64,000 bases of DNA. Origin: Paeniglutamicibacter sulfureus (GTDB taxonomy: Bacteria > Actinomycetota > Actinomycetes > Actinomycetales > Micrococcaceae). Below, piece after piece: positions 18,577-49,604 of the stretch (positions are counted from its first letter, which is position 1; every line of letters starts with the position of its first letter). Position numbers and translations under genes: made by a program. The notes beneath the pieces were generated by a model. The model worked only from the letters and a program-made list of their open reading frames with translations. It was not told the origin of the DNA and did not search any database. Location of the stretch: positions 680,149 through 744,148 of the forward strand of contig NZ_JAULBL010000002.1 of the NCBI RefSeq assembly GCF_030512175.1. The letters run 5' to 3'.

Positions 18577-19542
18577 ATGAAGAAAAACCGTCTCGTAATA
18601 GCGGCAGTGACCGGCATTCTCGCGTTGGCATTGTCCAGCTGTGGAGGGCCGAATGAAGCACCTGCCGAGCCCGGTGCGTTGGAGAAGGCTGCGGTCAAGG
18701 TGGGAGTTATGCCTCTCGCCGATTACGGGGCCGTCTACTGGGCCAAGGACAAGGGCTTCTTTGAAAAGGCCGGACTCGACGTTGAGCTTGTTCCGTTGCA
18801 GGGTGGTCCGATCGGAGTTCAAAAGGTTGCCTCCGGCGAAATCGACTTCAGTTTTTCAAACACCATGTCATCTACCCAGGCGATTAACGGTGGAGCTCCG
18901 GTGACAACAGTCGTTCTCACCAGTAGCGTGGGGCCGGGTTCCATCGGTGTGTATGTCACCCCTGATTCCCCGATTAAGGACATCGGCGACTTGGACGGAA
19001 AAACCGTTGGCATCAATACCACCAACAACATCGGAGACGTGAGTTTCCAGAGTTTGGCGAGTTCGATGAACCTTGATACCAAACCAATCTGGGTAGAAGT
19101 TCCTTTCAACGAAATGATCTCCGGCGTCCAAGCGAATTCTATTGAAGCCGGCTACATGCCTGAGCCTTTTGGCTCGGCGGCACTGGAAGCAGGACTTCGC
19201 AAGGTAGTCGACTTGACAGAAGGACCCAACGAAAAGCTCCCCGTATCAACTTTCGTGGCAAGCAACAAGTTTGTCGAAAGCAACCCGGTCACCACCGAAG
19301 CCTTCGCGACCGCAATGTACGAGGCAGGGAACGATATTGCGTCGAAGGAAAAAGAATTTCGCCAGTGGCTTCCCGGGGTAGCCGGGGTCTCCCAAGAAGT
19401 CGCCGAGACCATGACTATTCCGGTAATGGAGCCGAAAATGGACGTAGCAAAGGTTCAATACATCGCAGATATGCTCATTAAGCAAGGAATTATCGATTCC
19501 TTCGACGCCTCTAAGTCCACATTTGTCGCAGGCTCCAAATAG
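18577..19542 (+). CDS. NitT/TauT-type ABC substrate-binding lipoprotein
   Basis: 321 residues with a signal peptide and lipobox LSSCGG. The mature part (VKVGVMPLADYGAVYWAKDK at its start) belongs to the SsuA/TauA/NMT1-like binding proteins that capture sulfonates, aromatic acids or pyrimidine precursors. It heads a four-gene importer and sits next to aromatic-degradation genes, so an aromatic acid ligand is the simplest inference. A close paralogue is encoded at the other end of the island (48.6-49.6 kb). AGGAAA precedes the ATG. Confidence 0.9.
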   Translation: MKKNRLVIAAVTGILALALSSCGGPNEAPAEPGALEKAAVKVGVMPLADYGAVYWAKDKGFFEKAGLDVELVPLQGGPIGVQKVASGEIDFSFSNTMSSTQAINGGAPVTTVVLTSSVGPGSIGVYVTPDSPIKDIGDLDGKTVGINTTNNIGDVSFQSLASSMNLDTKPIWVEVPFNEMISGVQANSIEAGYMPEPFGSAALEAGLRKVVDLTEGPNEKLPVSTFVASNKFVESNPVTTEAFATAMYEAGNDIASKEKEFRQWLPGVAGVSQEVAETMTIPVMEPKMDVAKVQYIADMLIKQGIIDSFDASKSTFVAGSK

Positions 19543-20333
19543 TGAAAATGCTTAGTCAGACGCTAACGCGCAAGCAACAGGTGATATATGGGGTGGTTGG
19601 AACGCTCGGCATCCTTGTGATGTGGGAGCTCTTCATGCGAAGTGGCATCTTTGCAAAGCCCGGTTTGCCCGTCCCTACGCAGGTATTCACGCAAGCGGGT
19701 CGCCTTCTCCAAGACGCAAATTTTTGGGAACAGGTCTTGTATACGATGGGGGTCTGGCTTCTGGGGCTTGCCATTGCGGCCATCGCCGGGGTCATTCTAG
19801 GCAGCCTGATGGGCGCCTTCTCCAAGATGTTTATTGCTTTTGAACTGCCGGTCGAGGTGTTCCGCACGCTTCCTTCGATTGCGGTTGGCCCAATCCTGGT
19901 GCTTCTGCTGGGATCGGGCGCATTGCCGATTGCAATCACCGTGGCATTGTCGAGCGTATGGCCGATACTTTTGAACACGATGTATGGCGTGCGCAGTACG
20001 GACACCACAGCCGTGGCGACGGCAAAGACCTTTGGGATCAAGCCCTTTGGCCTGCTGATGCACATCAAGTTAATTAGCGCGCTGCCATTCTCCTTTACCG
20101 GCATCCGGATTGCTGCCTCTATTGGCCTCATCGTCACCGTTAGTGCCGAACTGCTGATCGGCAGCGGCCAAGGGATAGGCGGTTTCATTTTGATTGCGAG
20201 CGCTAATGCGGTCAATCTTGATGGTGTTTACGCAGCGACTCTTATTGCCGGAGTCCTTGGTGTTGTAGTGAACATGGCGTTCGCGGCTATCGACAACTCC
20301 GTTTTCGCATGGAAGAAGGGTCTTTCACAATGA
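19542..20333 (+). CDS. ABC transporter permease (SsuC-like) 1
   Basis: 263 residues with six membrane segments and the cytoplasmic EAA-type loop (ATAKTFGIKPFGLLMHIKLI) that docks on the ATPase. Start is GTG at 19542, overlapping the binding-protein stop by one base; an ATG two codons later is an alternative. It pairs with the next permease to form a heterodimeric channel. Confidence 0.9.
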   Translation: MKMLSQTLTRKQQVIYGVVGTLGILVMWELFMRSGIFAKPGLPVPTQVFTQAGRLLQDANFWEQVLYTMGVWLLGLAIAAIAGVILGSLMGAFSKMFIAFELPVEVFRTLPSIAVGPILVLLLGSGALPIAITVALSSVWPILLNTMYGVRSTDTTAVATAKTFGIKPFGLLMHIKLISALPFSFTGIRIAASIGLIVTVSAELLIGSGQGIGGFILIASANAVNLDGVYAATLIAGVLGVVVNMAFAAIDNSVFAWKKGLSQ

Positions 20334-21244
20334 CCGTCGTAGATAACGCGAAGAGTAAAGATTCCATTAAGGATTTACGCATTTCTGCAAACGGACGCCG
20401 GATGATCCAGCCAAATCCGTCAGTGCATGCTAAATCGCAGGCTGTGAGGCAGCGGATCATCCGTGTTGGGGTTCGCCTGGTTGTGCCGATTATCCTGGTT
20501 TTGGGGTGGTTCCTGCTTTCACAGGCACCGACAAGCCAGCTGTTTGTTGCAAGTCCTTGGACCTCGTTTCTGCGAGTCATTACGGACTACTTCAGCACGG
20601 ATCCTGCCAAGCTATTCTTGGGTGAAGTGACGTATGGTCATCTCCTTCCCAGCCTTGGGCGCGCGCTGGCTGGTTTGGCCCTGGCCGTAATCGTCGGCGT
20701 CGGGGTAGGGATAGTCTTGGGCATCTCACCCGTGGTTACAGCACTCTTCCAGCCGCTGATTCATTTGGGGCGGTCGATTCCCAGCCCGGCACTTCTAGGA
20801 GTTTTCTTCCTGCTGTTCGGCACCGGCGACAGCCCTAAAATCTTCCTGATCGCATTCGGCGTGGTTTGGCCGATTCTGTTCAACACCATTGATGGTGTTG
20901 GTTCGATCGGTGAGCAGAGGTTGCAGGCGGCAGCTGTATTCAAAATCCGACGCTCGGATGTCCTGACCAAAATCATCCTGCCGGGCGCTTCCCCAAAGAT
21001 CTTTGCTGGTATTCGAACATCGATGTCGCTGTCACTCATCATCATGATCATTTCCGAACTTCAGAAATCCGAAAACGGTCTTGGATATCTCTTGGTGATG
21101 ACGCAACGGACATTTGATTACGAAGGCTTCTGGTCGATCTTGATCGTCTTGGCTGTATTGGGCGTATTACTGAACGCTATTTTCCAAATCGTAGAACGCC
21201 GGGTCCTGGCCTGGCATCGAGGAGTGACCCAACAAAATGACTAG
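20330..21244 (+). CDS. ABC transporter permease (SsuC-like) 2
   Basis: 304 residues with a cytoplasmic N-terminal extension of about 45 residues and then six membrane segments; the docking loop reads AAAVFKIRRSDVLTKIILP. The ATG at 20330 overlaps the preceding stop by 4 bases and follows AGAAGGG; an upstream in-frame ATG at 20309 lies inside the previous gene. Most NitT/TauT importers use one permease gene as a homodimer, so the two-gene arrangement here is a little unusual. Confidence 0.9.
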   Translation: MTVVDNAKSKDSIKDLRISANGRRMIQPNPSVHAKSQAVRQRIIRVGVRLVVPIILVLGWFLLSQAPTSQLFVASPWTSFLRVITDYFSTDPAKLFLGEVTYGHLLPSLGRALAGLALAVIVGVGVGIVLGISPVVTALFQPLIHLGRSIPSPALLGVFFLLFGTGDSPKIFLIAFGVVWPILFNTIDGVGSIGEQRLQAAAVFKIRRSDVLTKIILPGASPKIFAGIRTSMSLSLIIMIISELQKSENGLGYLLVMTQRTFDYEGFWSILIVLAVLGVLLNAIFQIVERRVLAWHRGVTQQND

Positions 21245-22016
21245 TTCAACCACGACTAAAATGTCCGCAGAACTCAACCTTCAAGGCATTTCCAAATCCT
21301 ATGGAACGCTGATGGCTGTCCGGAGTATTACGGCACAAATCCCCGCAGGGAAAGTGTCCGTCATTGTCGGTCCGTCGGGCTGTGGAAAATCAACGCTTCT
21401 GCGCATCATCAGTGGCCTGGATACGCCGACTGAAGGTGCAGTAGCTTTTGACGGCGAGCCGGTAGTCGGTGTTCCGGATGGCTTGGCCATGGTATTCCAG
21501 GACTACTCAAGGTCCCTGTATCCATGGATGCGCGTTGATGCAAATGTGGCCTTCCCGCTCCGGCACCTGCCCCCGGCCGAGCGCAACGAACGCGTGCGCG
21601 AGAGCATTGAAGCCGTGGGACTAAAAGGCAAGGAAAAGCTGTACCCGTGGCAGATGTCGGGTGGAATGCAGCAGCGCGCGGCCATCGCCAGGGCCCTGGC
21701 ATTCAGGCCAAAGCTGTTGTTGATGGACGAACCTTATGCGTCAGTTGATGCGCAGACCCGTTCCGACCTTGAAGATCTCTTGCTGGAGATCCAGGCAAAG
21801 CTCGAAATCACAGTTCTCGTGGTTACCCACGACATTGATGAAAGTGTGTACCTGGCGGACAAGGTGATCGTACTTTCAGCACCTCCGAGTGTGGTTGCCG
21901 AGACGGTTGAAGTGGACTTGCCGCGTCCTCGTGATCAGGTTAGAACCAAACAGGATCCGCGCTTTGTGGAGCTTCGTGCGCATGTTACCTCACTTCTGCG
22001 GGGTGGCTCGGACTAG
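21237..22016 (+). CDS. ABC transporter ATP-binding protein (SsuB/TauB-like)
   Basis: 259 residues with Walker A GPSGCGKST, signature MSGGMQQRAAIARAL, Walker B LLLMDEPYASVD and switch His in VVTHDIDE. Family of nitrate/sulfonate/aromatic-acid importers. It overlaps the second permease by 8 bases, and the transcription unit ends at the hairpin 70 bases downstream. Confidence 0.93.
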   Translation: MTSSTTTKMSAELNLQGISKSYGTLMAVRSITAQIPAGKVSVIVGPSGCGKSTLLRIISGLDTPTEGAVAFDGEPVVGVPDGLAMVFQDYSRSLYPWMRVDANVAFPLRHLPPAERNERVRESIEAVGLKGKEKLYPWQMSGGMQQRAAIARALAFRPKLLLMDEPYASVDAQTRSDLEDLLLEIQAKLEITVLVVTHDIDESVYLADKVIVLSAPPSVVAETVEVDLPRPRDQVRTKQDPRFVELRAHVTSLLRGGSD

Positions 22017-22116: not shown

Positions 22117-22129
22117 CGTGGCATTTCTC

Positions 22130-22229: not shown

Positions 22230-23789
22230 ATGACGATGATGGCAGATAGCACGATGCTGAGCAGTGTCTTGGTCCTGGATGACGTCGTAAAAGACATGAC
22301 AACATTGCGCCAGCTAGTCTCCACGCCCGATGAAATCTTCGTCGCCGGCGTGTGGAAGCGCGGAGAGGGCGCTGCTATCAACTCGGTGAACCCCGCGACC
22401 GGAGAGGTCTTCGCCTCATTGCACGGAGCCACCGTTGAAGATGTGGAACTTGCCGTCCAGGGAGCCACCAAATCGCTTTCGGCCTCCGGCTGGGCGACTT
22501 GGCTCCCGCATGAACGCGCGATTGTTTTGCACCGGATTGCTTCCAAGATCCAAGAAAACGCAGATCTGATTGCCGCCCTGCAGACACTCGACACGGGCAA
22601 AACCCTACGCGAGACGCGCGCATTGGCGATGAGTGCCGCTGGGACCTTCAAGTTTGCTGCTGCAGCCGTGGAAACACTGGAAGATGCCATTACCCCTTCA
22701 CGGGGCGAAAACTTGACCATGTCCATTTATGAACCCTTGGGTATCGTCGGAGCAATCACTCCCTGGAATTCCCCGATTGCCAGCGATGCGCAGAAGCTCG
22801 CACCGGCCTTGGCGGCGGGAAACGCCGTTATCGTGAAGCCCCCTGTGTGGGCACCATGGGTCTCCCTTTTGTTGGCCCGACTTTGCGAAGAGGCCGGACT
22901 CCCGGAAGGGCTGCTCTCGGTTCTGCCCGGTCCGGGCCGAAGCGTCGGAGACGCCCTAGCTCGACACCCGAAGGTTGGAAAAATTTCCTTCACCGGTGGA
23001 ACGTCTACCGGGAGGGCGCTTGGACACGTAGCGGCCGAAAAGATTATGCCGATCACGCTTGAATTGGGCGGAAAGTCTCCGACCATTATTTTTGCGGATG
23101 CCGATATCGATCAAGCCATCGCAGGTGTGCTGTACGGGATATTTTCCTCCACCGGACAAAGCTGCATTGCCGGTTCGCGGGTCTTCATCCATAAGTCCAT
23201 CTACGCCGAAGTTGTTGATCGTCTTGTTGTCGCTACGCGCGCTCTTCGCGTGGGCCCAGGATCCGATCCCCGCACGCAGGTCGGACCATTGGTTGCGCAC
23301 GCACATAGAGACGAAGTCGCGGCTATGGTCGAGGCGGCACGTGAAGCCGGGGCGCAAATCCTTTGCGGGGGTGGTGCGCCGCACGGGGAAGCCATGGCAG
23401 CCGGTGCCTACTACATGCCGACGATCATTGCCGGAGTCGGGAACGACGCCTTGATTTGCCAGGAAGAGATCTTCGGTCCAGTGGCGGTGGTGCTCCCCTT
23501 CGATGACGAATCTGACTTGGTGGCACAGGCCAACGACACAGTATTCGGCCTGGCCTGCGGGATCTGGACCGCAGATTACAGGCGAGCATTGCGTACGGCG
23601 AAGGCTATAGCCGCGGGAACAGTGTGGGTGAACACCTACAAACAATTCAGCATTTCGACCCCTTTCAGCGGCACCAAGGATAGCGGACTTGGGACTGAAA
23701 AGGGCCGTGAAGGCATCCGGTCGTACATGAGGCAGAAGAGCATCTACCTGGACCTCTCGGGAACTCCTCTTCCGTGGGCCAAGCAATAA
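22230..23789 (+). CDS. NAD(P)-dependent aldehyde dehydrogenase
   Basis: 519 residues with the family core: cofactor-binding GIVGAITPWN, FTGGTSTGRA, the general-base Glu in LELGGKSP near residue 280 and the nucleophile Cys in GQSCIAGSR near residue 314. It is similar to the semialdehyde dehydrogenases of meta-cleavage pathways (2-hydroxymuconic or 2-aminomuconic semialdehyde). A RidA gene follows directly, and the aminomuconate pathway uses exactly an ALDH plus a RidA-type deaminase, so oxidation of an amino-semialdehyde is plausible. First gene of the long operon. Confidence 0.9.
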   Translation: MTMMADSTMLSSVLVLDDVVKDMTTLRQLVSTPDEIFVAGVWKRGEGAAINSVNPATGEVFASLHGATVEDVELAVQGATKSLSASGWATWLPHERAIVLHRIASKIQENADLIAALQTLDTGKTLRETRALAMSAAGTFKFAAAAVETLEDAITPSRGENLTMSIYEPLGIVGAITPWNSPIASDAQKLAPALAAGNAVIVKPPVWAPWVSLLLARLCEEAGLPEGLLSVLPGPGRSVGDALARHPKVGKISFTGGTSTGRALGHVAAEKIMPITLELGGKSPTIIFADADIDQAIAGVLYGIFSSTGQSCIAGSRVFIHKSIYAEVVDRLVVATRALRVGPGSDPRTQVGPLVAHAHRDEVAAMVEAAREAGAQILCGGGAPHGEAMAAGAYYMPTIIAGVGNDALICQEEIFGPVAVVLPFDDESDLVAQANDTVFGLACGIWTADYRRALRTAKAIAAGTVWVNTYKQFSISTPFSGTKDSGLGTEKGREGIRSYMRQKSIYLDLSGTPLPWAKQ

Positions 23790-23840: not shown

Positions 23841-24185
23841 ATGAGCGCTCATCCCTATAGTCCGGCTTTCGAGGTCGGCGGATTCGGCTTTGTCTCCGGC
23901 GCGTTGTCGATCGATGCGGACGGCGTGGCGGTGGGAGGACGTACAGAAGCCATAGACGCAGCCATGACGCGACTTTCCGAACGGCTGGCCACCATTGGAA
24001 TGACCTTGTCTCAAATTGTGAAAACCACCTATTTCGTCACGGATGTAAGTCTGCGAGACGAAGCGAACAAGCACTATGAAGCAACCTTTTCCGAACCGCG
24101 TCCGGCTCGTTCGTTCGTCGAGGTTTCAGCGCTGCCCTATGGTGCCACCGTTGAAATTGAAGCAATCGCGCACGGACGAAAGTGA
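23841..24185 (+). CDS. RidA/YjgF family deaminase
   Basis: 114 residues with the RidA pattern: YSPAFEVGGFGFVSGALS at the N-terminus, KTTYFVTD in the middle, and RPARSFVEVSALPYGATVEI with the imine-binding Arg and the final Glu. Members hydrolyse reactive enamines and imines to keto compounds and ammonia; 2-aminomuconate deaminase is a catabolic relative. Position between an ALDH and the reductase favours a pathway role over housekeeping. A second RidA-like gene lies at the operon end. Confidence 0.9.
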   Translation: MSAHPYSPAFEVGGFGFVSGALSIDADGVAVGGRTEAIDAAMTRLSERLATIGMTLSQIVKTTYFVTDVSLRDEANKHYEATFSEPRPARSFVEVSALPYGATVEIEAIAHGRK

Positions 24186-24191
24186 AATGGA

Positions 24192-25199
24192 ATGAGCATC
24201 GCGGGTTTAGAAACAGAAATTGAATCCACTACCGCTATTGACACACCAAGCAGTCTGCGTTCCCTGCGGCTTCAGATACTGGGCTGGGAAGCTGAAGGTA
24301 TCATCAGTCTCCGGTTCACGGATCCTATGGGCGGCACGCTTCCGGTATGGAAGCCGGGTGCGCACCTTAGCCTCCAGCTGGCCAACGGCCTTGTGCGTGA
24401 ATACTCGCTCTGCTCGGACCCCACGGACACCTCGGGATGGACTGTTGCGGTCTTGAAGGTGCCTGATTCCCGTGGAGGCTCGAAGTCAATCCACGAAGAA
24501 TTGAGGGTCGGCTCCATTGTCACCGTAGACGGTCCTAAGAACAACTTTGCCATCGAGCCCTCCGCACACTATGTATTTGTAGCCGGCGGCATTGGTATCA
24601 CTCCGATCATTTCCATGGTTCGGGAAGTCGCGTCTGCGGGAGCGTCATGGTCGCTTCTTTACACCGGACGATCGCGTTCAAGCATGGCGTTCCTTGACGA
24701 GATCGCTTCCCTTCCAGCCAACCACGTCACCATTCATGCAGATGACGAAGCCAACGGAAAGTTTCCCGATCTTGTGGCCGCCGTCGGAAGCATTTCTGCA
24801 GACACTCTCGTTTATGTTTGTGGCCCGGAGCCATTGATGAACGCAGTGGCAGGTTCAATGGCCGACGAGTCTCAGCTGCGGATCGAAAGGTTCAAGGCGC
24901 CGGAAGTTGTCGTCGACCCGAACGCGGAAGAAAACTCCTTTGACGTTATCTGCCAAAGTAGCGGGGAACGGGTCACTGTAGGGCCAGATACCTCCGTCCT
25001 GGACGCTCTCCAAGAGGCGGGATTGGACATGCCGAGCTCTTGCACAGAGGGAATTTGCGGTACCTGCGAGGTCGGGGTCATCCGTGGGGACGTGGATCAT
25101 CGGGACTTCCTCCTGAGCCCGGCCGAACAAACCGCAAACAAGACCATGTTCATCTGTGTTTCGCGCTGCCGTTCCGCGGAACTCGTCCTGGACATTTAG
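24192..25199 (+). CDS. Ferredoxin-NAD(P) reductase, phthalate-dioxygenase-reductase type
   Basis: 335 residues. The order is FMN/FAD-binding barrel with REYSLCSDP, NAD-binding domain (FVAGGIGITPIISMV) and a C-terminal plant-type [2Fe-2S] domain with CTEGICGTC and a last Cys in MFICVSRC. This FMN/NAD/ferredoxin order defines reductases of class IA Rieske oxygenases such as phthalate dioxygenase and vanillate demethylase. Its partner is almost certainly the Rieske oxygenase at 29.7 kb in the same operon. Confidence 0.92.
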   Translation: MSIAGLETEIESTTAIDTPSSLRSLRLQILGWEAEGIISLRFTDPMGGTLPVWKPGAHLSLQLANGLVREYSLCSDPTDTSGWTVAVLKVPDSRGGSKSIHEELRVGSIVTVDGPKNNFAIEPSAHYVFVAGGIGITPIISMVREVASAGASWSLLYTGRSRSSMAFLDEIASLPANHVTIHADDEANGKFPDLVAAVGSISADTLVYVCGPEPLMNAVAGSMADESQLRIERFKAPEVVVDPNAEENSFDVICQSSGERVTVGPDTSVLDALQEAGLDMPSSCTEGICGTCEVGVIRGDVDHRDFLLSPAEQTANKTMFICVSRCRSAELVLDI

Positions 25200-25253: not shown

Positions 25254-26240
25254 ATGAATTTCTTTGCAGCAGAGCCTGTTTGCAATCTGCGTGCCCTGCG
25301 TTCGGTATCCCTGAAGATGCCGGAGTTGACGTCGACGAAGGATTTTTACCACGAGGTTTGGGGTCTTTCCACCGTTGAGGAGGATGGGGACAAGTTTTGG
25401 TTGCGGGGTACGGGGGACGAGCACCATATCCTGAGGCTTGAGAAGGGTGAGCAGAATGCCTTGGGCAGTATTTCCTTTGCTCTTGCTACACCGCGGGATG
25501 TTGATGAGGCGGCCAGGAGGCTGGAGGAGCTGGGGATTCCGTTGTTCCGCGAGCCCGGTCCGTTGGATGATGCCGCGGGCGGGTATGGCTTGCAGCTGGT
25601 GGATCCGGAGGGGCGCCTGGTGGAGCTTTCCGCGGACGTTTTTGCCGTGGCCAAGCAGGAGCCGGCCGGGAGGCGTGCCATTCCACGCAAGATTGCCCAC
25701 GTCGTGCTGAACACCGTTGATATCGATCGGGCCACTGCCTTTTACACCCAAGTGTTGGGCATGCGGATTTCGGATTGGTCGGAGCACCAGATGGCTTTTT
25801 TGCGGTGCAACTCCGAACACCACGTGATTGCGTTCAACCAGGCCCCGTGGACGGCGGTGAACCATGTTGCCTACGAGATGCAGAGCATTGACCACTTCAT
25901 GCGGGGGATCGGGAGCTTGAAGACCAACGGGATCACCCCGCAGTGGGGTCCCGGGCGCCATGGCCCGGGTGACAACACCTTCTCGTACTTCACCGATCCG
26001 GCGGGCCTGGTCTGCGAGTACACCTCGGAGGTAGCTCAGGTGGATGAGGACAGCTGGCTGTGCCGGACGTGGAAGCGGACCCCGGAATTGTCAGATCAGT
26101 GGGGGACCGCTGGTCCTCCGACCACTGAGGTGCGTTCGGCGATGGCGGGAATCCCTGATCAGGGGTACCGTTCCCTGGTGGTTCCCGGTGACCCCGGCTA
26201 TTTCTCGGTTCCGGAGTTGAGCGATGTCAATACACACTAA
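25254..26240 (+). CDS. Two-domain VOC extradiol-type dioxygenase, copy 1
   Basis: 328 residues with two vicinal-oxygen-chelate domains. The second carries the probable iron ligands: His in IAHVVLNTVD, His in VNHVAYEMQ and Glu in LVCEYTSE, as in catechol 2,3-dioxygenase relatives, plus HGPGDNTFSYFTDPAG. It should open a dihydroxy- or aminohydroxy-aromatic ring with O2. The coding sequence is repeated without a difference that I could find at 36224. Codon choice is G-rich at third positions compared with neighbouring genes. The last 17 bases overlap the hydrolase gene start. Confidence 0.88.
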   Translation: MNFFAAEPVCNLRALRSVSLKMPELTSTKDFYHEVWGLSTVEEDGDKFWLRGTGDEHHILRLEKGEQNALGSISFALATPRDVDEAARRLEELGIPLFREPGPLDDAAGGYGLQLVDPEGRLVELSADVFAVAKQEPAGRRAIPRKIAHVVLNTVDIDRATAFYTQVLGMRISDWSEHQMAFLRCNSEHHVIAFNQAPWTAVNHVAYEMQSIDHFMRGIGSLKTNGITPQWGPGRHGPGDNTFSYFTDPAGLVCEYTSEVAQVDEDSWLCRTWKRTPELSDQWGTAGPPTTEVRSAMAGIPDQGYRSLVVPGDPGYFSVPELSDVNTH

Positions 26241-26245
26241 CGGCT
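25254..26245 (+). repeat. Exact 992-bp repeat, copy 1
   Basis: Identical to 36224-37215 by eye. Similarity starts at the ATG and stops five bases after the stop codon. This copy includes the authentic start of the overlapping hydrolase gene. Confidence 0.95.
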
Positions 26246-27818: not shown

Positions 27819-27901
27819 CTTCACACGTACGCTCATCCGACACTGAAGACTTGGGGCCGGCCGATTCCGTCCTCCCCGTTTATTACCAAGGAGAATTACT
27901 G

Positions 27902-34981: not shown

Positions 34982-34994
34982 AATACTTGATCCG

Positions 34995-40446: not shown

Positions 40447-40572
40447 GGCACCTTTCCGTTGGTGATGGACATGCTTCTGCTGGCCGTCACACGGGCGCGT
40501 TAAGTGAGGACCTGAGGGCAAAATCGCGAACCGCTATCCGTCGAGCTATCCTGACATGATGTTGATTTATGT

Positions 40573-40609: not shown

Positions 40610-40656
40610 CTAGATCTTCCTGGGTGGCGTCGGCGTCAGCCCATGACAGGAGCAAT

Positions 40657-41538: not shown

Positions 41539-42104
41539 CCGTCCAGAATTCCACCGAGTGCGGCTCTGGCTGCCAGAACTGCGCCGATGGCAACACGGCC
41601 AATGGCCGCAGTGTCGAGATTGAGTTCACTCTCAATGGGGAAAGCCAGCAACACGTCATCCCCACCAACGTCACGTTGCTTGATTTGTTGCGTGATCGAT
41701 GCGGCAAGCGCGGAGTCCGGTCGTCGTGCGAACGAAGCGTGTGCGGTGCGTGCACGGTGTTGATCGATGACGTGCCTGTTGCATCCTGTGCGACGTTCGC
41801 CTTTGACGTCGACGGTTCCAAGGTAGAAACGGTCGAGAGCCTGGAGATGTCTGACGGCACGCTGAACCCGGTTCAGGAGGCATTCCGCCAGTGCGGAGGT
41901 TACCAGTGCGGGTTCTGTACTTCCGGAATGCTGATGCTCACCACGGGATTGCTTCGGGAAAACCCCGCTCCGGAACGCATCGAAATCAGGGACTGGATTA
42001 GCTCAAACACCTGCCGTTGCACGGGCTACGAAATGATCATGGAATCGGTGGAACGCGCGGCAGAGCTCACACGTGAAGCAGGAACGGAAGGTGCATGGGC
42101 ATGA
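41535..42104 (+). CDS. Molybdenum hydroxylase, [2Fe-2S] subunit (CoxS-like)
   Basis: 189 residues. The plant-type cluster motif is CERSVCGACTVLIDD with a distal Cys, and the second, helical cluster motif is CGFCTSG...CRCTGY. An N-terminal Cys-rich tail (TECGSGCQNCADGN) is an unusual extra of about 25 residues. It relays electrons from the Mo site to FAD. Overlaps both neighbours, so subunit stoichiometry is probably controlled by translational coupling. Confidence 0.93.
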   Translation: MTVQNSTECGSGCQNCADGNTANGRSVEIEFTLNGESQQHVIPTNVTLLDLLRDRCGKRGVRSSCERSVCGACTVLIDDVPVASCATFAFDVDGSKVETVESLEMSDGTLNPVQEAFRQCGGYQCGFCTSGMLMLTTGLLRENPAPERIEIRDWISSNTCRCTGYEMIMESVERAAELTREAGTEGAWA

Positions 42105-44428
42105 CCGCCATCATTGAGGCATCGGTTCAGGCAACCGGGCCGATTGTCGGGAGCGACCGCCCCCGCCTGGATGCAATCCAAAAGGTCACTGGCAGAGCCA
42201 GCTACACGGTGGACGTACGCCGGCCGGGAATGCTGCACGCAAAGGTCCTGCGTAGCCCGCACGCCCACGCACGCATCCTTGGCATCGACACATCCGATGC
42301 CCTGGCGCTCGAAGGCGTGGAGGCTGTACTTACAGGTGACGATGTTCGCCAACTTGCCAAGTACGGTTCCTTCGTCAAGGACCAGGCGGTCTTGGCTCTG
42401 GATGTGGTCCGTTATGTAGGGGATCCAGTCGTGGCGGTGGCGGCCGTTGACGAGCGCACGGCAAGTGCCGCGTTGGACCTGATCCGGGTGGAGTACGAAA
42501 TTCTGCCCGCAGTCTTTGACATTAAATCCGCGATGGATCCCGAATCACCGTTGATTCATGCCGACCGGGTCGTGGCGAATGTACCTCACTATGGCCCTGG
42601 CACGTCGGGTTTTACCCACTCCGCACACAACGTTAACTATGAGTTTCGCTATGAAACCGGTCCCGAGTCGGTGTGGGATGAATGTGACCATATTTTTGAG
42701 GACACGTTCACCTTTGGTCGGATGAACCATATGCACCTAGAGCCCTTTGTTTCGGTGGCAGAAGCAACCGATGAACAAATCGAAATCTGGACTTCCACCC
42801 AGGCCCCGTTCCAGATCCGTTTGGAACTCTCCGGAGTCTTCGGTCTTCCAGATAACAAGGTCCGGGTCCATGCTCCGATGCTTGGCGGCGGGTTCGGTGC
42901 AAAGCACGGACCGCATGCCGAGGCAATCGCGATCGGACTCTCGCAACGTGCCAATGGCAGGCCGGTGCGCTTCTGCATGACAACAGAAGAAGTTTTCCTT
43001 TCCTTGACCCAGCACGAAGCGATCCTCACCTTAACCACCGGGGTGAATTCCGATGGCGAATTTATTGCCAGGAACTCACGGGTCTGGCTCAACAGCGGCG
43101 CCTATGCGGACCTATCGCCGTTAGTGGTCGAAAAGGCTGGCTACCGGATGGCAGGTGCCTACCGCTGGAAACGCATTGATTCCATCTGTCAAGGGGTTGT
43201 CACCAACACTGTTCCTGCAGGTGCCTTCCGCGGGTTTGGGGGGACCCAGGCTTCTTGGGCGAGCGAACGCCAGGTGGATCTTGTGGCTGAACGTTTGGGA
43301 ATGTCCCCGTTTGAGCTTCGACTCAAGAACTTGAAGGATCTGGGCGAGGCCTATGTCCCCGGGGAAACCCCGGTCGACTCAGACCTTAAGCTTGGACTTA
43401 ACCTTGTCGCAGACACAATCGGATACAAGGACCGGCAGAGAACTCCGGGCCGCGGTATGGGTGTGGCCATCGGGATGAAGGATGGCGGTGGCGTGAACAA
43501 GCCGGCGCAGGCCCGGGTGAAGATCAGCAGCAACGGCTCTGTATTTTTGAATTGCGCCCTGACCGAAATGGGGCAGGGCGGGCACTCCGCTATGTGCCAG
43601 ATAGTTGCCGAAGTCTTGGGGTGCGAACCCGTCGACGTCACCTATGCTGCGATCGACACCGACAATTCCCCGTACTGCCAGGGCACCAATGCCTCGTCGG
43701 GAATTGCTGTTATGGGCCGTGCGGTTCGCCAGGCAGCGGAAAAAGCCAAACGCGCAGTGCTTGACTACGCTGCTGAGCAGTTGGACAGGGAAAGCGCGGA
43801 ACTCAGCTTGGTCGGGTGGTCTGTTGAGGACAGCGAGGGTGTGGGCCATCCACTCAAGAAACTGGTCATGCAGAACTTTGGTGCGCTCGGATTCGAATTC
43901 ATTGGGGAAGGGTTCTTCAAGGCAACTCGCTCCACGGAATCACCGCTGGAAGCCCCCTGCGTATTTTGGGAAATAGGCTGGGCCGCGGCCGAGGTCGATG
44001 TGGATCTCGAAACCGGGAAAGTCACGCTCCTTCAATTGGTTGTCAGCGGCGATGCAGGAAAGGTCATCAACAAGATCGGCTGCCGAGGCCAGGACGAAGG
44101 TGCCGCGGTGTTCGGTTTGGGGCAGGCGCTGTTTGAGGAGCTGCGCTTCGAGGACGGTGTGCTGCTCAACGCGGAGGCGCTGCTCTACCGGGTCCCCCTC
44201 GCCGAGGACATCCCGGAAACTTTCACGTCCATTACGCAGGCACAGGGGCATGGAGGAGGACCTTTTGGTGCCAAGGGCATGGGAGAAGGGACAATGCTTC
44301 CAATTGCTCCGGCCATTGCCCAGGCCGTCGCGGATGCCACCGGCGCACAGCTCACCGGACTGCCCATGACGCCCCAGCGGGTATACATGGCCTTGCAAGC
44401 CGTCGGCAACGATTCCGGGGCATACTGA
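42095..44428 (+). CDS. Molybdenum hydroxylase, Mo-cofactor subunit (CoxL-like)
   Basis: 777 residues with the molybdopterin-binding loops GGGFGAKHG, GAFRGFGGTQ, GQGGHSAM and the catalytic-Glu loop KGMGEGTMLPIAPAI near the C-terminus. It lacks the CO-dehydrogenase active-site AYXCSFR signature, so it is a hydroxylase of the quinoline/nicotinate/isoquinoline type rather than a CO dehydrogenase. The ATG at 42095 overlaps the FeS gene by 10 bases; a second ATG two codons later is possible. Confidence 0.92.
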   Translation: MGMTAIIEASVQATGPIVGSDRPRLDAIQKVTGRASYTVDVRRPGMLHAKVLRSPHAHARILGIDTSDALALEGVEAVLTGDDVRQLAKYGSFVKDQAVLALDVVRYVGDPVVAVAAVDERTASAALDLIRVEYEILPAVFDIKSAMDPESPLIHADRVVANVPHYGPGTSGFTHSAHNVNYEFRYETGPESVWDECDHIFEDTFTFGRMNHMHLEPFVSVAEATDEQIEIWTSTQAPFQIRLELSGVFGLPDNKVRVHAPMLGGGFGAKHGPHAEAIAIGLSQRANGRPVRFCMTTEEVFLSLTQHEAILTLTTGVNSDGEFIARNSRVWLNSGAYADLSPLVVEKAGYRMAGAYRWKRIDSICQGVVTNTVPAGAFRGFGGTQASWASERQVDLVAERLGMSPFELRLKNLKDLGEAYVPGETPVDSDLKLGLNLVADTIGYKDRQRTPGRGMGVAIGMKDGGGVNKPAQARVKISSNGSVFLNCALTEMGQGGHSAMCQIVAEVLGCEPVDVTYAAIDTDNSPYCQGTNASSGIAVMGRAVRQAAEKAKRAVLDYAAEQLDRESAELSLVGWSVEDSEGVGHPLKKLVMQNFGALGFEFIGEGFFKATRSTESPLEAPCVFWEIGWAAAEVDVDLETGKVTLLQLVVSGDAGKVINKIGCRGQDEGAAVFGLGQALFEELRFEDGVLLNAEALLYRVPLAEDIPETFTSITQAQGHGGGPFGAKGMGEGTMLPIAPAIAQAVADATGAQLTGLPMTPQRVYMALQAVGNDSGAY

Positions 44429-44433: not shown

Positions 44434-45639
44434 ATGCGTGAGGTAATGAAAGGCCTCGAAAGGGCGCAGGCCACCGGCGAATGTCTAGCCCTGGCCACAG
44501 TGGTACGAACCGAAAAATCGGCTCCACGGGCCATTGGCACCTCGATGTTTGTCACCGAATCGGGCCAACCCGTTGGTTCGGTTTCCGGTGGGTGCGTGGA
44601 GGCGGCGGTGATGGCCGCCGCAGAAGATGTGCTGGAATCCGGGATGCCGGAACTGCACAGTTTCGGAATCAGCGATGACCTCGGGCTTGAAATCGGCCTG
44701 ACCTGTGGCGGCACCATCGAAATCCTCATCCAACCTTACGAACCGGCGACCCGGTCCGACTTTGCCGCATTGCAACAGGCCTTGGCGTCGAACATCGATT
44801 GTGCCATGGTGACGGTCTTCGACGGGCCCCAGGGATTGCCCGGCCGGTCCGAATTGGTACTGCGCGGTGAAGAAGTTTCGGGGCTCCTCGACGGGGCTGG
44901 GCTCTCCACCCAAACGGTTGATGAGGCCTCGCGCCGCGTAGCGGATGCATTGGCCAAGGGAAGGTCGGCTTCGATCAGGGTGGCTGGGGTCGTTTCCATG
45001 CTCATTGACGTGTATAAAAGCCCGCGCAACCTGCTGATCTTTGGAGCCATAGATTTCACCACGTCCTTGGCCGAACTCGGCCGGTTCTTGGGATTCCATG
45101 TCATTGTTTGTGACGCCCGTTCGGTCTTCGCCACGCCTGAACGGATTCCAGCGGCTCATCAAATTGTGATCGAACAGCCGTGGCGGTACCTGGAACGGCA
45201 AATCAATGAAAAGAGCCTCCCCCTAGACACGGCCGTTTGCGTACTGACCCATGATTCCAAGTTCGATATCCCCGTATTGGACATGGCCTTGAAGCATGGC
45301 TTCTCCTATGTGGGGGCGATGGGGTCCCGGCGCACCGATGGCGAACGGCGGGGAAAGCTGACGTCGATGGGACATGGTTCCGAAACCCTGTCATCGCTTC
45401 GCTCTCCCATCGGACTGGACTTGGGGGCGCGCACCCCCCATGAGACGGCTTTGTCAATCATGGCCGAGATTGTGGCAAGTACGTCCGGAACCTCCGGCCT
45501 GCCCCTGCACCGCATTGACGTACCAATACACGAGAGGGATGAAGCTGCCGCAGGAACCACGGGATCCTTGGCATCCAAGGCAGGGCACTGGGCGCCGGAC
45601 TGTACCGATGTGCAAAGTGCAGAGCGGAACATTCGCTGA
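44434..45639 (+). CDS. XdhC/CoxI family Mo-cofactor maturation factor
   Basis: 401 residues. The N-terminal XdhC_CoxI domain has SGGCVEAAV and the CGGTIEILIQP element; the second half is the XdhC Rossmann domain, with YVGAMGSRRT and IGLDLGARTPHETALSI. XdhC proteins bind the molybdenum cofactor and load or sulfurate it for the enzyme. It follows the large subunit by 5 bases, as expected for a dedicated chaperone. It has a polar C-terminal tail of about 50 residues not normally needed. Confidence 0.92.
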   Translation: MREVMKGLERAQATGECLALATVVRTEKSAPRAIGTSMFVTESGQPVGSVSGGCVEAAVMAAAEDVLESGMPELHSFGISDDLGLEIGLTCGGTIEILIQPYEPATRSDFAALQQALASNIDCAMVTVFDGPQGLPGRSELVLRGEEVSGLLDGAGLSTQTVDEASRRVADALAKGRSASIRVAGVVSMLIDVYKSPRNLLIFGAIDFTTSLAELGRFLGFHVIVCDARSVFATPERIPAAHQIVIEQPWRYLERQINEKSLPLDTAVCVLTHDSKFDIPVLDMALKHGFSYVGAMGSRRTDGERRGKLTSMGHGSETLSSLRSPIGLDLGARTPHETALSIMAEIVASTSGTSGLPLHRIDVPIHERDEAAAGTTGSLASKAGHWAPDCTDVQSAERNIR

Positions 45640-46027: not shown

Positions 46028-46079
46028 AAGACATGAAGAGCGGTTCTGGTTGGTATTCCAGAACCGCTCTTCATGTCTT
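46028..46079. terminator. Bidirectional terminator at the cupin 2 end
   Basis: A 22-bp perfect stem (46028-46049 with 46058-46079), the longest in the window. Its right arm overlaps the last codons of the cupin 2 gene. Confidence 0.85.
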
Positions 46080-46607
46080 GCGCTGTGGTTTGTGGGTGAC
46101 GCCGTGCATTTCGGAGGATGGCGGGTAGAAGGGGAGGGCTGGCTTTTTGGCTCCGATGATGACGCAGATGATGGCGTCGGTTTCGGAGACGGTGCGGAGG
46201 CTGCGGGGGACGCCGGCCGGGACGCGGATGAGGTCGCGGTAGCCCAGGATACGGCTGGCTTTCTTGGTGCCGTCTTCGACATCGTGGACACTGAATTCCA
46301 CTTCGCCTTCGAGGACGAAGAAGACCTCTTCGACGTCGGGGTGGGTGTGCTCGGGGCCGACGCATCCGGCGGGGAGCACCATGTTGGAGAAGGTGAAGTT
46401 TTCTGCCTGAAGGATGTTGTTGTCGTCGGAGTGGTCACCGGTGGCGCCGGATCCGATGTAGCGGACCTGTCCGCGGCGGAACTTTTCGCCCATTTTGGTC
46501 TGGAACTTGAGGGTGTCGAAGTCGACGATTCGGCTTTCACTGGAGGCGATTGAGGAATCGATCAATTCCTCGAGTGCGGTTGTCGTTTCGGTGGTGGTTT
46601 CGTTCAT
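46071..46607 (-). CDS. Cupin domain protein, copy 2
   Basis: 178 residues, the same protein as cupin 1 except for its last few residues (VTHKPQRKT instead of VTR), caused by two substitutions at the old stop that let the frame read on into the terminator stem. The metal-binding cupin motifs are unchanged. It is again divergent from a MarR gene, so the cupin/MarR pair as a unit has been duplicated in the island. Confidence 0.85.
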   Translation of the reverse strand: MNETTTETTTALEELIDSSIASSESRIVDFDTLKFQTKMGEKFRRGQVRYIGSGATGDHSDDNNILQAENFTFSNMVLPAGCVGPEHTHPDVEEVFFVLEGEVEFSVHDVEDGTKKASRILGYRDLIRVPAGVPRSLRTVSETDAIICVIIGAKKPALPFYPPSSEMHGVTHKPQRKT

Positions 46608-46622
46608 GACTGGACCTTTCTC
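46078..46622 (-). repeat. 545-bp repeat, copy 2 (cupin gene)
   Basis: Matches 31817-32361. Beyond 46622 the divergent promoter region is unrelated. Confidence 0.95.
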
Positions 46623-46810: not shown

Positions 46811-47365
46811 GTGAGTACTGAACAGCAAGCCAGCCGCCTCGAGGGCGACTCGGTTGACGATATTTTGGAAGATTGGAAGCGCGAGCGACCAGATCTGGAC
46901 GCCGAAACGATCGGCGTCTTTGGGCGGCTCCCCAGGGTTGTTGCCCAGCAGCGGGCCATGCAAAACGAGAACTACGAGGAGTTCGGGCTAACACTTGCTT
47001 CCTTTGACGTGTTGGCGAATCTTCGTCGGTCGGGAGCCCCGCACCGCAAGACTGCCGGGGAATTGGCAAGCTCCTCCATGCTGACCACGGGAGGCATTAC
47101 CTTCCGACTGGACCGGATGGAGGAACAAGGCCTGATCGAACGTGTGCGCACACCGAGCGACCGCCGGGTTGTATATGCCCAGTTGACGGCTCGCGGCAAG
47201 GAGATTATTGATGCAATCATCGCCAGGCACCTTGAAACACAGCGCCACATGTTGGGCGACATGGAACCTGCAGAAATCGCACAGTTGGCGATGTTGCTGA
47301 AGAAGGCTGGGAATTCGATTGCAGCCTACGAGAAGAGCCTCACGCTTTCCGAACTTGCGGTCTAA
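46811..47365 (+). CDS. MarR family regulator 2
   Basis: 184 residues. The winged-helix core is practically that of MarR 1 (same recognition helix and wing), whereas the N-terminal 60 and C-terminal 55 residues share only moderate similarity. The two regulators should therefore bind the same DNA site but may sense different ligands, since the outer helices form the dimer and ligand pocket. Its stop overlaps the next gene by one base. AAGGAG precedes the GTG. Confidence 0.92.
   Translation: MSTEQQASRLEGDSVDDILEDWKRERPDLDAETIGVFGRLPRVVAQQRAMQNENYEEFGLTLASFDVLANLRRSGAPHRKTAGELASSSMLTTGGITFRLDRMEEQGLIERVRTPSDRRVVYAQLTARGKEIIDAIIARHLETQRHMLGDMEPAEIAQLAMLLKKAGNSIAAYEKSLTLSELAV
46994..47190 (+). repeat. 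MarR core repeat, copy 2
   Basis: Matches 32722-32918 with three substitutions. Confidence 0.9.
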
Positions 47366-48204
47366 TGACAGCAACTGACGCCGGACCTGTAGACGGGAAC
47401 GAAATGAAGGCACAGACCGCAAGCCGGATCGGCGTCATCGGGCATGGTGCTGTCGGATCACGGGTGGCGGCAGACCTGGCCGCAGGACGGGTCAACGGCG
47501 CCGTACTGGCGGGGATCGTTGTGCGGGGAGTGTTGGTCGATGCTCCTGCGCCACAGCTTGACTTGGCGCAAGCGTTGGAGCAATGCGATCTCATCGTGGA
47601 ATGCGCCGGACAGGAAGCACTGCTTGCCCATGGAAAGGCGATACTCTGTGCTGGAGTTGACCTGTTGATCACTTCCATGGGGGCACTGGCCGACTCGAGG
47701 TTCTTACAGAGCCTGGAAGCGGCAGGTCCGGGCAGGCTTTTTCTGACGTCCGGTGCCATTGGAGGCCTTGACCTGCTGGCGTCCGGTGCCCGCTCCGACG
47801 GATACGATAGCGTCGTGGTGACCACGAAGAAACTGCCGTCTTCGTTGCTTCAGCCATGGATGGTCCAGGCCCAGATCGACGAACTCACCGCTGCCACCGA
47901 ACCTGTGGAAATTTTCTCCGGCTCCGCGCGCGATGCCGCACGACTTTTCCCTAAGTCACTCAATGTGGCCGCCGCCGTGGCTATGGCCATTGGGGATTGG
48001 GAGGTGGTCAGCGTGAGGCTCATAGGTGATCCGACGGCCGAATTAACTGAGCATGTGATCGAAGCAAACGGTCCCAGCGGGGAATATTGCTTCGTCATCC
48101 GCAACAAACCCTCGCCGGAAAATCCGCGTACCAGTGGTGTGGTTCCGTTCTCGGTGCTCCGCTCCCTGGAATCGATTGTTGGCGTTCGCGGGGGCTTGAT
48201 CTAG
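47365..48204 (+). CDS. Aspartate-dehydrogenase-like (NadX/DUF108) protein
   Basis: 279 residues. The N-terminal Rossmann motif is GVIGHGAVGSRVAADL, followed by LIVECAGQEAL and LTSGAIGGLDLLAS; the C-terminal DUF108-like domain has KSLNVAAAVAMA. Such proteins oxidise L-aspartate or related amino acids with NAD(P). In a catabolic island this suggests handling of an amino or imino acid product or reductive fixation of released ammonia; that is inference. It overlaps MarR 2 by one base, so the regulator and enzyme are co-expressed. An ATG 13 codons on is an alternative start. Confidence 0.85.
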   Translation: MTATDAGPVDGNEMKAQTASRIGVIGHGAVGSRVAADLAAGRVNGAVLAGIVVRGVLVDAPAPQLDLAQALEQCDLIVECAGQEALLAHGKAILCAGVDLLITSMGALADSRFLQSLEAAGPGRLFLTSGAIGGLDLLASGARSDGYDSVVVTTKKLPSSLLQPWMVQAQIDELTAATEPVEIFSGSARDAARLFPKSLNVAAAVAMAIGDWEVVSVRLIGDPTAELTEHVIEANGPSGEYCFVIRNKPSPENPRTSGVVPFSVLRSLESIVGVRGGLI

Positions 48205-48632
48205 GGCGCATCTTCTTACTCGGCATCCTCGCCCGCAGCATTCTAGAAGTGTCCTGCAAGAGGGGCGGTGTCCTAGTGGTGGGTCAGTGACGGTTTGTCG
48301 CAGCCAGCGGAATGCTCCGCCATTGCTGGAGAGTGTCTATTCTGCGATCACGACATTGACTCGTGTGCGGGCCGCCCCTTCGCAGGTCACCGGCCGTCAG
48401 CGCGCCTATTCCATGTTGCGGTTTGATCGCATCGAAAGGTGTTGAGCTACGCGTGGTAGCGTTCCAAGACATGGCATACCACCGGGCGTCGTCGGAAAAC
48501 GTCTCGCGATCCGGGAACACAAGGAGTACCGGCGCCGTGGGACAGAGTGTGCGCCAACTCCGAGGTCCTTAGAGCTCGGGGTTGGCGCGCCAGTGAGAGG
48601 CAATATTCTGTTTGGATGTTGCGACTAAAGGA
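48205..48632. other. Intergenic region at the island's right part
   Basis: About 430 bases between two convergent genes. Only short frames without family similarity are present. No convincing hairpin or repeat. Confidence 0.4.
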
Positions 48633-49604
48633 TTACTTCAGGTACGTGTGCTGACTTACGTCGGATTCCTTTATGATGCCCTGTTCGACGAGCATGTCGG
48701 TTACGGCTTGCAACTTTTCGACCTTCATCTCCGACTCGAAGACCGGCAGCGCCATTTCAGCTGCGACTTCGGGGGTGACGCCGGCAACGCCGGGTAGCCA
48801 TTCGCGGAATTCGGCCTCCTTGGCGGCGATATCGTTCCCGGCTGCATACATGGCGTCTACGAAGGCCACCACGGTTTTCGGATTCTTCTCGACGAAGCTG
48901 TCGCTGGCGACGAATGTTGCCGCGGTCAATTCCGCATTGGGTCCTTGGGTGAGGTCTACAACTTCTCTCAACCCGGATTCCCTGGCAGCCGATGCAAAAG
49001 GCTCAGGAAGATAGCCGGCATCGATGGAATCTGCTTGGACGCCAGCCGCTATCTCATTGAAGGGTACTTCGATCCAGTTCGGCTTGATGTCTAGGTGCAT
49101 AGACGAGGCAAGGTTTTTGAACGTGACGTCCCCGATATTGTTGGTCGTGTTTACGCCGACCGTCTTGCCTGCGAGGTCCTCGAGGTCCTCGATTGGCGAA
49201 TCTTGCTTGACGAAGATCAGGTTGCTGTGGGGGCCTAGGCTGCTGCTAGAAACCACAGTCGTGACCGGCGCGCCCCCAGCGGTCGCGATAGCAGTGGATA
49301 TTGAGTTCGCGAAGCTGAAATCCAGCTCGCCCGAGGCGACTTTCTGCACCCCGATTGGACCGCCCTGGAGCGGCTGAACTTCCACACTGAGGCCGACCTT
49401 TTCAAAGAATCCATGATCGTCTGCCCAGTAGACGGCGGCATAGTCTGCCAATGGTAGAACACCAACGGTCAACTGTGTTTTCTCCAACTGGCCGTCGCCG
49501 CCGGGGGATGGTGCTTGCGCCGCGGTTGGCCCACTGCAGCTCGCCAATGCAAACGTGAGGGCCAAGCAGGCCAGCCCAGCGCTGGCCGTGATGTGTTTCT
49601 TCAT
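48633..49604 (-). CDS. Second NitT/TauT-type substrate-binding lipoprotein (orphan)
   Basis: 323 residues with signal peptide and lipobox LASCSG. The mature region is a clear paralogue of the binding protein at 18.6 kb (both share VGVLPLADYAAVYWA-like and VNTTNNIGDV segments). No permease or ATPase is next to it, so it probably feeds the same importer 27 kb away, broadening its ligand range. An inverted repeat with TCTTA/TAAGA half-sites lies upstream. Confidence 0.9.
   Translation of the reverse strand: MKKHITASAGLACLALTFALASCSGPTAAQAPSPGGDGQLEKTQLTVGVLPLADYAAVYWADDHGFFEKVGLSVEVQPLQGGPIGVQKVASGELDFSFANSISTAIATAGGAPVTTVVSSSSLGPHSNLIFVKQDSPIEDLEDLAGKTVGVNTTNNIGDVTFKNLASSMHLDIKPNWIEVPFNEIAAGVQADSIDAGYLPEPFASAARESGLREVVDLTQGPNAELTAATFVASDSFVEKNPKTVVAFVDAMYAAGNDIAAKEAEFREWLPGVAGVTPEVAAEMALPVFESEMKVEKLQAVTDMLVEQGIIKESDVSQHTYLK

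Follow-up and report, generated by a model that had tools for sequence, protein, structure and literature searches.

The window analyzed here, a 64-kb stretch of the 4.55-Mb genome of the soil-type actinobacterium Paeniglutamicibacter sulfureus, contains an island of ~32,000 bases (~18-50 kb of the window) whose catabolic genes occupy positions 18577-49604. This island may be the acquired version of a modular pathway for bicyclic N-heteroaromatic acids, most likely the quinoline-2-carboxylates derived from tryptophan, a reading to which we give roughly even odds. A narrower and more tentative proposal is that the island fills the gene gap of the kynurenic acid quinoline pathway and provides three entries, for kynurenate, xanthurenate and quinaldate, that converge. 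It is very probable that the genes together encode a modular pathway that is conserved and degrades an N-heteroaromatic acid.

The conserved core and its add-on modules

When the GTDB genomes are scanned with six aligned Rieske proteins, at least 587 relatives are found in at least 595 candidate stretches, and all counts out of 80 refer to the best 80 of these stretches, which are actinobacterial loci. The core is defined by twelve genes, encoding an aldehyde dehydrogenase (ALDH), a cupin protein, a reductase, a VOC extradiol dioxygenase, an alpha/beta hydrolase, two short-chain dehydrogenases/reductases (SDR1 and SDR2), a thiamine diphosphate (ThDP) enzyme, a small HTH_62 protein, a Rieske oxygenase, an aspartate dehydrogenase (AspDH)-like protein, and a MarR regulator. 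With a threshold of at least 40% identity over 40% of the length (35% identity for the hydrolase), at least nine of the twelve lie together in 71 of the 80 loci. The HTH_62 gene stands directly 5' of the Rieske gene in all 80, and the SDR1-SDR2-ThDP and HTH_62-Rieske runs are both present in 71. A MarR gene is found in 57 loci and any RidA gene in 40, while the counts of the other genes are given with the features below; all are lower bounds because several loci stop at contig ends. The recurrent order, observed in Williamsia, Rhodococcus, Nocardia, Gordonia and Blastococcus, is ALDH-RidA-cupin-reductase-VOC-hydrolase-SDR1-SDR2-ThDP-hydrolase2-HTH_62-Rieske-small protein-RidA2. The cupin gene lies elsewhere in Arthrobacter, Janibacter is devoid of RidA1, and Streptomyces is rearranged, as is the P. 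sulfureus island, which holds the same gene set in another order.

The core is also carried by plasmids. A search of a plasmid collection with the Rieske protein returns 26 records, of which 11 regions were fetched, and the core is present in those of Klebsiella, Acinetobacter, Caballeronia, Novosphingobium, Nitratireductor, Pseudosulfitobacter and Paracoccus; the Streptomyces plasmid region carries no annotation, and its genes were assigned by similarity. The electron-transfer partners of the proteobacterial clusters vary, being a ferredoxin with a ferredoxin reductase, a VanB-type reductase, or an FAD-dependent oxidoreductase with a flavodoxin-domain protein. The Novosphingobium region returns no SDR1 match, and the Caballeronia M1242 region is incomplete, being cut at the record end. 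Association of the VOC and Rieske genes was further observed in a family sample of 301 genomes around a Rhodococcus, which overlaps the 44-genome Rieske sample described below. The VOC gene is found in 48 of them, accompanied by the Rieske gene in 47 and lying at most 15 kb from it in 42; the remaining genome exhibits a partial VOC match and no flavin monooxygenase. In a class sample, the VOC gene occurs in 7 of 394 genomes, the P. sulfureus genome included.

The families of the island proteins were checked with NCBIfam and Pfam. All the enzyme classes named by the original prediction, which was made from the DNA and its open reading frames (ORFs), return significant family matches, that of the hydrolase at 28865 being weak. 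The features of the island are as follows (coordinates and strand in the window).

18577..19542 (+): ABC importer substrate-binding protein 1 (SBP 1); NMT1/SsuA-type match; related importer genes adjoin the core in two other loci
19542..20333 (+): ABC permease 1; homologues adjoin the core in other genera
20309..21244 (+): ABC permease 2; homologues adjoin the core in other genera
21237..22016 (+): ABC ATPase; 79-80% identity in five Nocardia/Gordonia/Rhodococcus superclusters; an ATPase adjoins the core in three other loci
22230..23789 (+): ALDH, core; family match; 68/80 loci
23841..24185 (+): RidA 1, enamine/imine deaminase family; TIGR00004; 33/80 loci
24192..25199 (+): reductase, predicted Rieske electron donor; FNR-2Fe2S, with NAD-binding and C-terminal [2Fe-2S] domains; 77/80 loci
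25254..26240 (+): VOC extradiol dioxygenase, copy 1; PF00903, two-domain; putative Fe ligands H149, H204, E255; 70/80 loci
26224..27078 (+): alpha/beta hydrolase, core; family match; 72/80 loci
27072..27818 (+): SDR1, predicted cis-dihydrodiol dehydrogenase; 74/80 loci; directly 3' of the Rieske gene in three proteobacterial clusters
27896..28690 (+): SDR2; PRK07062, 341 bits vs cut-off 266; 73/80 loci
28865..29482 (+): divergent second alpha/beta-hydrolase-like protein; weak PcaD-type match, no Pfam match; 30/80 loci
29475..29693 (+): small HTH_62 protein, 72 residues; PF20552, 104 bits; adjoins the Rieske gene; 80/80 loci
29697..30794 (+): single-subunit Rieske oxygenase; VanA_C-type; 80/80 loci
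30855..31163 (+): small conserved protein; no Pfam match; 28/80 loci
31157..31546 (+): RidA 2; PF01042; 26/80 loci
31828..32346 (-): cupin protein, copy 1; family match; 70/80 loci
32518..33087 (+): MarR regulator A; 70% identical to MarR B
33830..34981 (+): flavin monooxygenase module; nearest solved relative 6-hydroxynicotinate 3-monooxygenase; 11/80 loci
34914..35771 (+): IclR regulator; family match
36224..37210 (+): VOC extradiol dioxygenase, copy 2; DNA identical to copy 1
37426..39093 (+): ThDP enzyme, predicted 2-oxoacid decarboxylase; PRK07064, 694 bits vs cut-off 495; 75/80 loci
39362..40521 (-): interrupted IS110-type transposase, outside the pathway; Pfam match of the C-terminal part above cut-off, of the N-terminal part below
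40624..41538 (+): molybdenum (Mo) hydroxylase FAD subunit, CoxM-like; family match
41481..42104 (+): Mo hydroxylase [2Fe-2S] subunit, CoxS-like; family match
42095..44428 (+): Mo hydroxylase molybdopterin subunit, CoxL/XdhA-like; family match
44434..45639 (+): XdhC-family maturation factor; family match
46071..46607 (-): cupin protein, copy 2; 99.3% identical to copy 1 over 549 bp
46811..47365 (+): MarR regulator B, PecS/UrtR type; sequence and fold matches
47365..48204 (+): AspDH-like protein; family match; 46/80 loci
48633..49604 (-): substrate-binding protein 2, paralogue of SBP 1; closer than SBP 1 to the SBP of the five superclusters

Besides the core, the island comprises two add-on modules, the flavin monooxygenase and the Mo hydroxylase, which were surveyed in 44 of the 46 Rieske-locus genomes. 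A flavin monooxygenase homologue at E 1e-90 is present in 22 of the 44, as well as in 20 of the 48 VOC-positive genomes of the family sample, where it lies at most 15 kb from the VOC gene in 17 of the 20. The large subunit of the Mo hydroxylase has an orthologue (59-70% identity) in 8 of the 44 genomes, and in 7 of these 8 it stands beside the core. Five superclusters share the order MarR-SBP-permease-permease-ATPase-CoxM-CoxS-CoxL-AspDH; in four of them, from Nocardia and Rhodococcus rhodnii, this run is followed by ALDH and the core, and in Gordonia ABSL11-1 the core comes first. Environmental type strains with an intact supercluster include Rhodococcus rhodnii, Nocardia grenadensis and Gordonia sp. 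ABSL11-1. In the window, the point at which the gene order leaves that of the superclusters is the IS110 remnant (39362-40521, minus strand) between the ThDP and CoxM genes. Flavin monooxygenases sharing 60-63% identity with that of the island adjoin the core in Caballeronia M1242 and Nitratireductor.

In one case a module is replaced by another. A cupin search of the plasmids returns 25 records, two of which belong to Vibrio nigripulchritudo and are both outside the 26 Rieske records. The region from one of the two encodes the cupin, hydrolase, VOC, SDR2, ThDP, AspDH and ALDH proteins together with a flavin monooxygenase (60% identity), and its 30 kb return no match for the Rieske or HTH_62 proteins and no SDR1, the sole SDR1-like match (23%) being the SDR2 gene itself. 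This plasmid thus carries the lower pathway with the flavin enzyme in place of Rieske and SDR1, and the simplest reading is therefore that these are alternative routes to one catechol, the substrate of the VOC enzyme. No Rieske-less, flavin-monooxygenase-positive actinobacterium was found among the 48 VOC-positive genomes. The pathway region of the Vibrio plasmid also carries TRAP transporter genes. Regarding the HTH_62 protein, whose family (PF20552) is termed "recombinase-like", its gene lies beside that of Rieske in each of the 80 loci and is absent, like Rieske, from the Vibrio region, so the protein probably works with this oxygenase group and is not a recombinase component.

Active sites, regulators and the proposed pathway

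The VOC residues H149, H204 and E255, as well as H189/H190, H236 and Y245, are invariant in 26 of 26 sequences. By analogy to 2,3-dihydroxybiphenyl dioxygenase, a type I extradiol enzyme, we take the first three to be the Fe ligands and the others to be the acid-base residues. The VOC model (mean predicted local distance difference test, pLDDT, of 80.2) has an uncharacterised Novosphingobium protein as its top fold match, followed by homoprotocatechuate 2,3-dioxygenase. All 80 loci conserve the Rieske [2Fe-2S] motif, and 79 conserve the mononuclear iron motifs (D-H-H and EQD). The flavin monooxygenase is nearest to 6-hydroxynicotinate 3-monooxygenase (E 3.6e-83), and the nearest solved structures of the Mo large subunit are 4-hydroxybenzoyl-CoA reductase (1rm6) and then quinoline 2-oxidoreductase (1t3q), a class-level likeness that says little on the substrate.

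MarR B resembles PecS and MftR best, both in sequence and in fold (mean pLDDT of the model 91.8), with alignment E-values of 1.9e-32 for PecS, 9.9e-30 for MftR and 4.2e-7 for the Variovorax auxin MarR. All 26 MarR regulators compared, from the window and the surveyed genomes, have W22, D66, R99, R111 and H140, and these positions align with PecS; the first four presumably correspond to the residues of the HucR urate pocket. In HucR, a histidine contacts urate, according to the relevant part of PMC12893000, and H140 appears to be its counterpart. PecS, MftR and HucR respond to urate, as stated in passages of PMC5487221 and PMC12893000. The conservation of the urate-pocket positions therefore points to a planar bicyclic compound as the predicted MarR ligand.

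Kynurenate, xanthurenate (the 8-hydroxy form) and quinaldate (the 4-deoxy form) differ by hydroxylations, and these are exactly what enzymes of the Rieske-SDR1, flavin monooxygenase and Mo hydroxylase types perform and could supply here. If we assume such substrates, the ABC importer would take up the acid, the Mo hydroxylase would hydroxylate C4 of quinaldate to yield kynurenate, the Rieske oxygenase with its reductase would convert kynurenate into the 7,8-dihydrodiol, and SDR1 would turn the latter into 7,8-dihydroxykynurenate, which the flavin monooxygenase would form from xanthurenate (8-hydroxykynurenate). The VOC enzyme would then cleave the benzene ring next to a ring-fusion carbon, leaving a 4,6-dihydroxypicolinate with an oxo-acid side chain that SDR2 might reduce. 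Oxopropyl, formylethyl and carboxyethyl dihydroxypicolinates are the intermediates known to follow ring cleavage, hence the need for a 2-oxoacid decarboxylase of the ThDP type and an ALDH, both of which belong to the core; the first would decarboxylate the side chain and the second would oxidize the resulting aldehyde. The hydrolases and the cupin protein may open the remaining pyridine ring to iminosuccinate and a C5 diacid. The presence of AspDH and RidA would be accounted for because the ring nitrogen would leave in iminosuccinate, a four-carbon dicarboxylate that AspDH would convert into aspartate, while RidA may aid its hydrolysis into oxaloacetate and ammonia. Lastly, the MarR regulators would sense a bicyclic pathway compound. 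At class level, the ring-dihydroxylating oxygenase, its electron donor and the diol dehydrogenase SDR1 that a kynurenate pathway calls for are present in 80, 77 and 74 of the 80 loci, respectively, and the extradiol dioxygenase has an intact Fe site in 26 of 26 sequences. The analysis shows the gene families, the active-site motifs, the clustering, the co-occurrence of modules and one replacement of a module; which substrates are used, how the lower steps follow one another and what they yield is inferred. The claim of the original prediction, that of a nitrogen-containing aromatic acid degraded by an N-heterocycle logic, is supported at class level by the NicC-like flavin enzyme, the Mo hydroxylase, RidA, AspDH and the PecS/UrtR-type MarR.

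Several results weigh against this assignment. Tryptophan dioxygenase (PF03301) occurs in 23 of 52 genomes or records, and five dioxygenase queries found none near the core in 103 loci or regions (one of them not a core region), so that no genomic link to tryptophan breakdown is seen. The Pseudosulfitobacter cluster is adjoined by genes for an acyl-CoA dehydrogenase and a CoA transferase, and a glutarate operon 3' of this cluster was considered and rejected, as the closer relatives of the dehydrogenase are acryloyl-CoA reductase and short-chain enzymes, with glutaryl-CoA dehydrogenase more distant, and the identity of the CoA transferase is ambiguous. The title of a 1961 report, cited in PMC5770815, reportedly has Pseudomonas extracts converting kynurenate to glutamate, alanine and acetate, and not to aspartate and glutarate. 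RidA and AspDH are present in only 40 and 46 of the 80 loci, the flavin enzyme in 11, and the Mo enzyme is also missing from many. The Rieske-less example comes from a single species, from one of two plasmid records, and from plasmid DNA only; the record splits its ThDP gene into two annotated pieces, and the frame of its flavin monooxygenase looks interrupted. With no dioxygenase link, no glutarate genes recognised beside the one promising cluster and other products in 1961, the probability of a kynurenate-type substrate is therefore about one in two.

A rather unlikely alternative is that the same modular pathway serves another bicyclic N-heteroaromatic acid, such as another hydroxyquinoline, an indole or benzazole carboxylate, or a purine- or pteridine-like compound. 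All of the enzyme evidence is at class level and would accommodate it, and for a purine-like substrate the UrtR-type MarR would fit, as would an NCS2 nucleobase-type permease encoded close to the Paracoccus cluster. However, it is not obvious what an extradiol enzyme would do in purine breakdown, and the chemistry of the three tryptophan quinolines matches the module set closely.

Improbable is a monocyclic aromatic amine or aminophenol pathway, in which cleavage would yield an amino-muconic semialdehyde that is oxidized by ALDH and deaminated by a RidA-family protein. Known aminomuconate deaminases are RidA-family proteins, and the island encodes an ALDH, an extradiol enzyme and two RidA-family proteins, so that the aminomuconate logic earlier seen in the pair of ALDH and RidA is possible. 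It is weakened by the recurrence of RidA, a gene of which is in 40 of the 80 loci, as against 68 for ALDH and 70 for VOC, and the ThDP enzyme and AspDH would be left without an obvious role. Moreover, known 2-aminophenol 1,6-dioxygenases are LigB-type (type II) enzymes, another extradiol class, whereas the ring-cleavage enzyme of the island is of the VOC type (PF00903).

Still less credible is iad-type catabolism of auxin (indole-3-acetate) to anthranilate via 2-aminobenzoylformate, which had been offered as a different fit. The iad locus, in the passages of PMC9613470 and PMC10374108 that describe it, likewise has a Rieske oxygenase and its reductase, along with MarR regulators and a substrate-binding protein. 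However, the Variovorax Rieske protein IadDE is an alpha/beta pair and its reductase IadC is of the FMN type (locus description in PMC10374108), whereas the island oxygenase is a single-subunit VanA-type protein beside which no beta subunit is recognised among the island proteins scanned. MarR B is far nearer to PecS than to the Variovorax auxin regulator, and an extradiol enzyme and a Mo hydroxylase do not appear in those same passages of PMC9613470 and PMC10374108. Homology to the iad system is thus rejected on the Rieske architecture and the MarR subfamily, with no alignment of IadD against the island Rieske protein. Finally, an accidental pile-up of unrelated catabolic genes by mobile elements, which low GC, the IS110 remnant, the exact VOC duplication and the near-exact cupin duplication might suggest, is hardly tenable since the same gene set is clustered in other genera; the earlier description of the island as composite is misleading, as many genera carry the core together with its add-on modules as one unit.

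The island, its borders and its duplications

The GC content is 0.54-0.60 across 18-50 kb, as compared with 0.63-0.68 at 1-18 and 50-56 kb. On the right, homology to the window restarts at 49990-49995 in three genus relatives; on the left, where only one of the three aligned, it stops at 16825, with other DNA between the two borders. The Rieske gene is detected at E 1e-40 in 1 of 15 genus genomes, that of P. sulfureus itself, and in 0 of the 14 others, a same-species genome included, and at E 1e-30 in 2 genomes of an order sample of 297, one of which is again its own. Therefore, given the low GC, the break of homology and the absence of the Rieske gene from the other genus genomes, the stretch of ~32,000 bases reads as a horizontally acquired island.

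Two parts of the island are duplicated. The VOC gene lies in an exact 992-bp repeat (25254-26245 and 36224-37215) with gene-exact borders, starting on the start codon and stopping five bases past the stop codon, and it reads as a recent copy or a gene conversion whose borders are unusually exact. The cupin gene is present at 31813-32361 and 46074-46622 (99.3% over 549 bp), and each copy adjoins one of the two MarR genes, which are alike at the DNA level (87.5% over 345 bp); copying inside the island seems to have involved a cupin-MarR unit.

The right flank (50890-55675) looks like a sugar-acid catabolic cluster. It comprises an MFS transporter, a 2-hydroxyacid dehydrogenase, a KduD-like SDR scoring under the KduD cut-off and, judged by eye, a 2-keto-3-deoxy-6-phosphogluconate (KDPG) aldolase and a 2-keto-3-deoxygluconate kinase; its first 2.4 kb are 91-95% conserved in three genus relatives. 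Positions 56998-62662 form another low-GC patch (GC 0.49 at 58-60 kb), the ORFs of which resemble, by eye, a DNA cytosine methyltransferase, a GHKL-type ATPase and IS21 istA/istB.

Comparison with known systems

In the open-access PMC literature, no description was found of a conserved core with swappable entry modules shared by actinobacteria and proteobacteria, nor any gene-level description of this gene set or of the kynurenate pathway. To our knowledge, at least three kynurenate-pathway enzymes have been known solely as activities since the 1960s, and the island, if the kynurenate reading is true, would provide their sequences. Some betaproteobacteria are said to degrade tryptophan via kynurenate, and Delftia/Comamonas acidovorans is said to employ the quinoline pathway for tryptophan. 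Kynurenate, xanthurenate and quinaldate are compounds followed in neurology, immunology and gut research; if the reading is true, common soil actinobacteria and opportunists (Klebsiella, Acinetobacter) could consume these host-made neuroactive tryptophan metabolites, and genomes and metagenomes could be searched for their destroyers. According to passages of a review (PMC5770815), kynurenate given by mouth was found again chiefly as quinaldic or 8-hydroxyquinaldic acid, a conversion in which gut microbes are the most probable agents. The same passages, which name no genes, state that microbial catabolism of kynurenate is known from Pseudomonas and Aerococcus.

Among characterized systems, quinoline 2-oxidoreductase and 4-hydroxybenzoyl-CoA reductase, both of the xanthine oxidase family, are the nearest solved relatives of the Mo subunit, a likeness of class that is no evidence of substrate. 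The nicotinate pathway contributes a relative of the flavin monooxygenase, NicC, although in the island this enzyme is only an accessory module; NicX-type ring opening, a maleamate amidase and an isomerase are not recognised among the scanned island proteins, NicX having not been sought with a model of its own. The iad locus of Variovorax and Bradyrhizobium, the substrate of which is an indole acid, likewise combines a Rieske oxygenase and reductase with two MarR regulators and a substrate-binding protein, but the island differs by the Rieske and MarR types given above and by its extra extradiol, ThDP, AspDH and Mo enzymes. The UrtR, PecS, MftR and HucR regulators provide the top matches of MarR B, the pocket positions of which are conserved; in contrast with them, MarR B is adjoined by catabolic genes.

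Among the closest parallels is the kynurenate quinoline pathway of Pseudomonas, reportedly described in 1961 by Hayaishi and co-workers and in 1963 by Dagley & Johnson, to judge from the titles; reference lists also name Horibata 1961 and Kaihara & Price 1962. Its known activities are a kynurenate 7,8-hydroxylase, a dihydrodiol dehydrogenase and a 7,8-dihydroxykynurenate dioxygenase. Although the products predicted for the island are unlike those of the 1961 title, its predicted dihydroxylation of the carbocyclic ring, extradiol cleavage and dihydroxypicolinate breakdown would follow the same course, and the enzyme classes fit.

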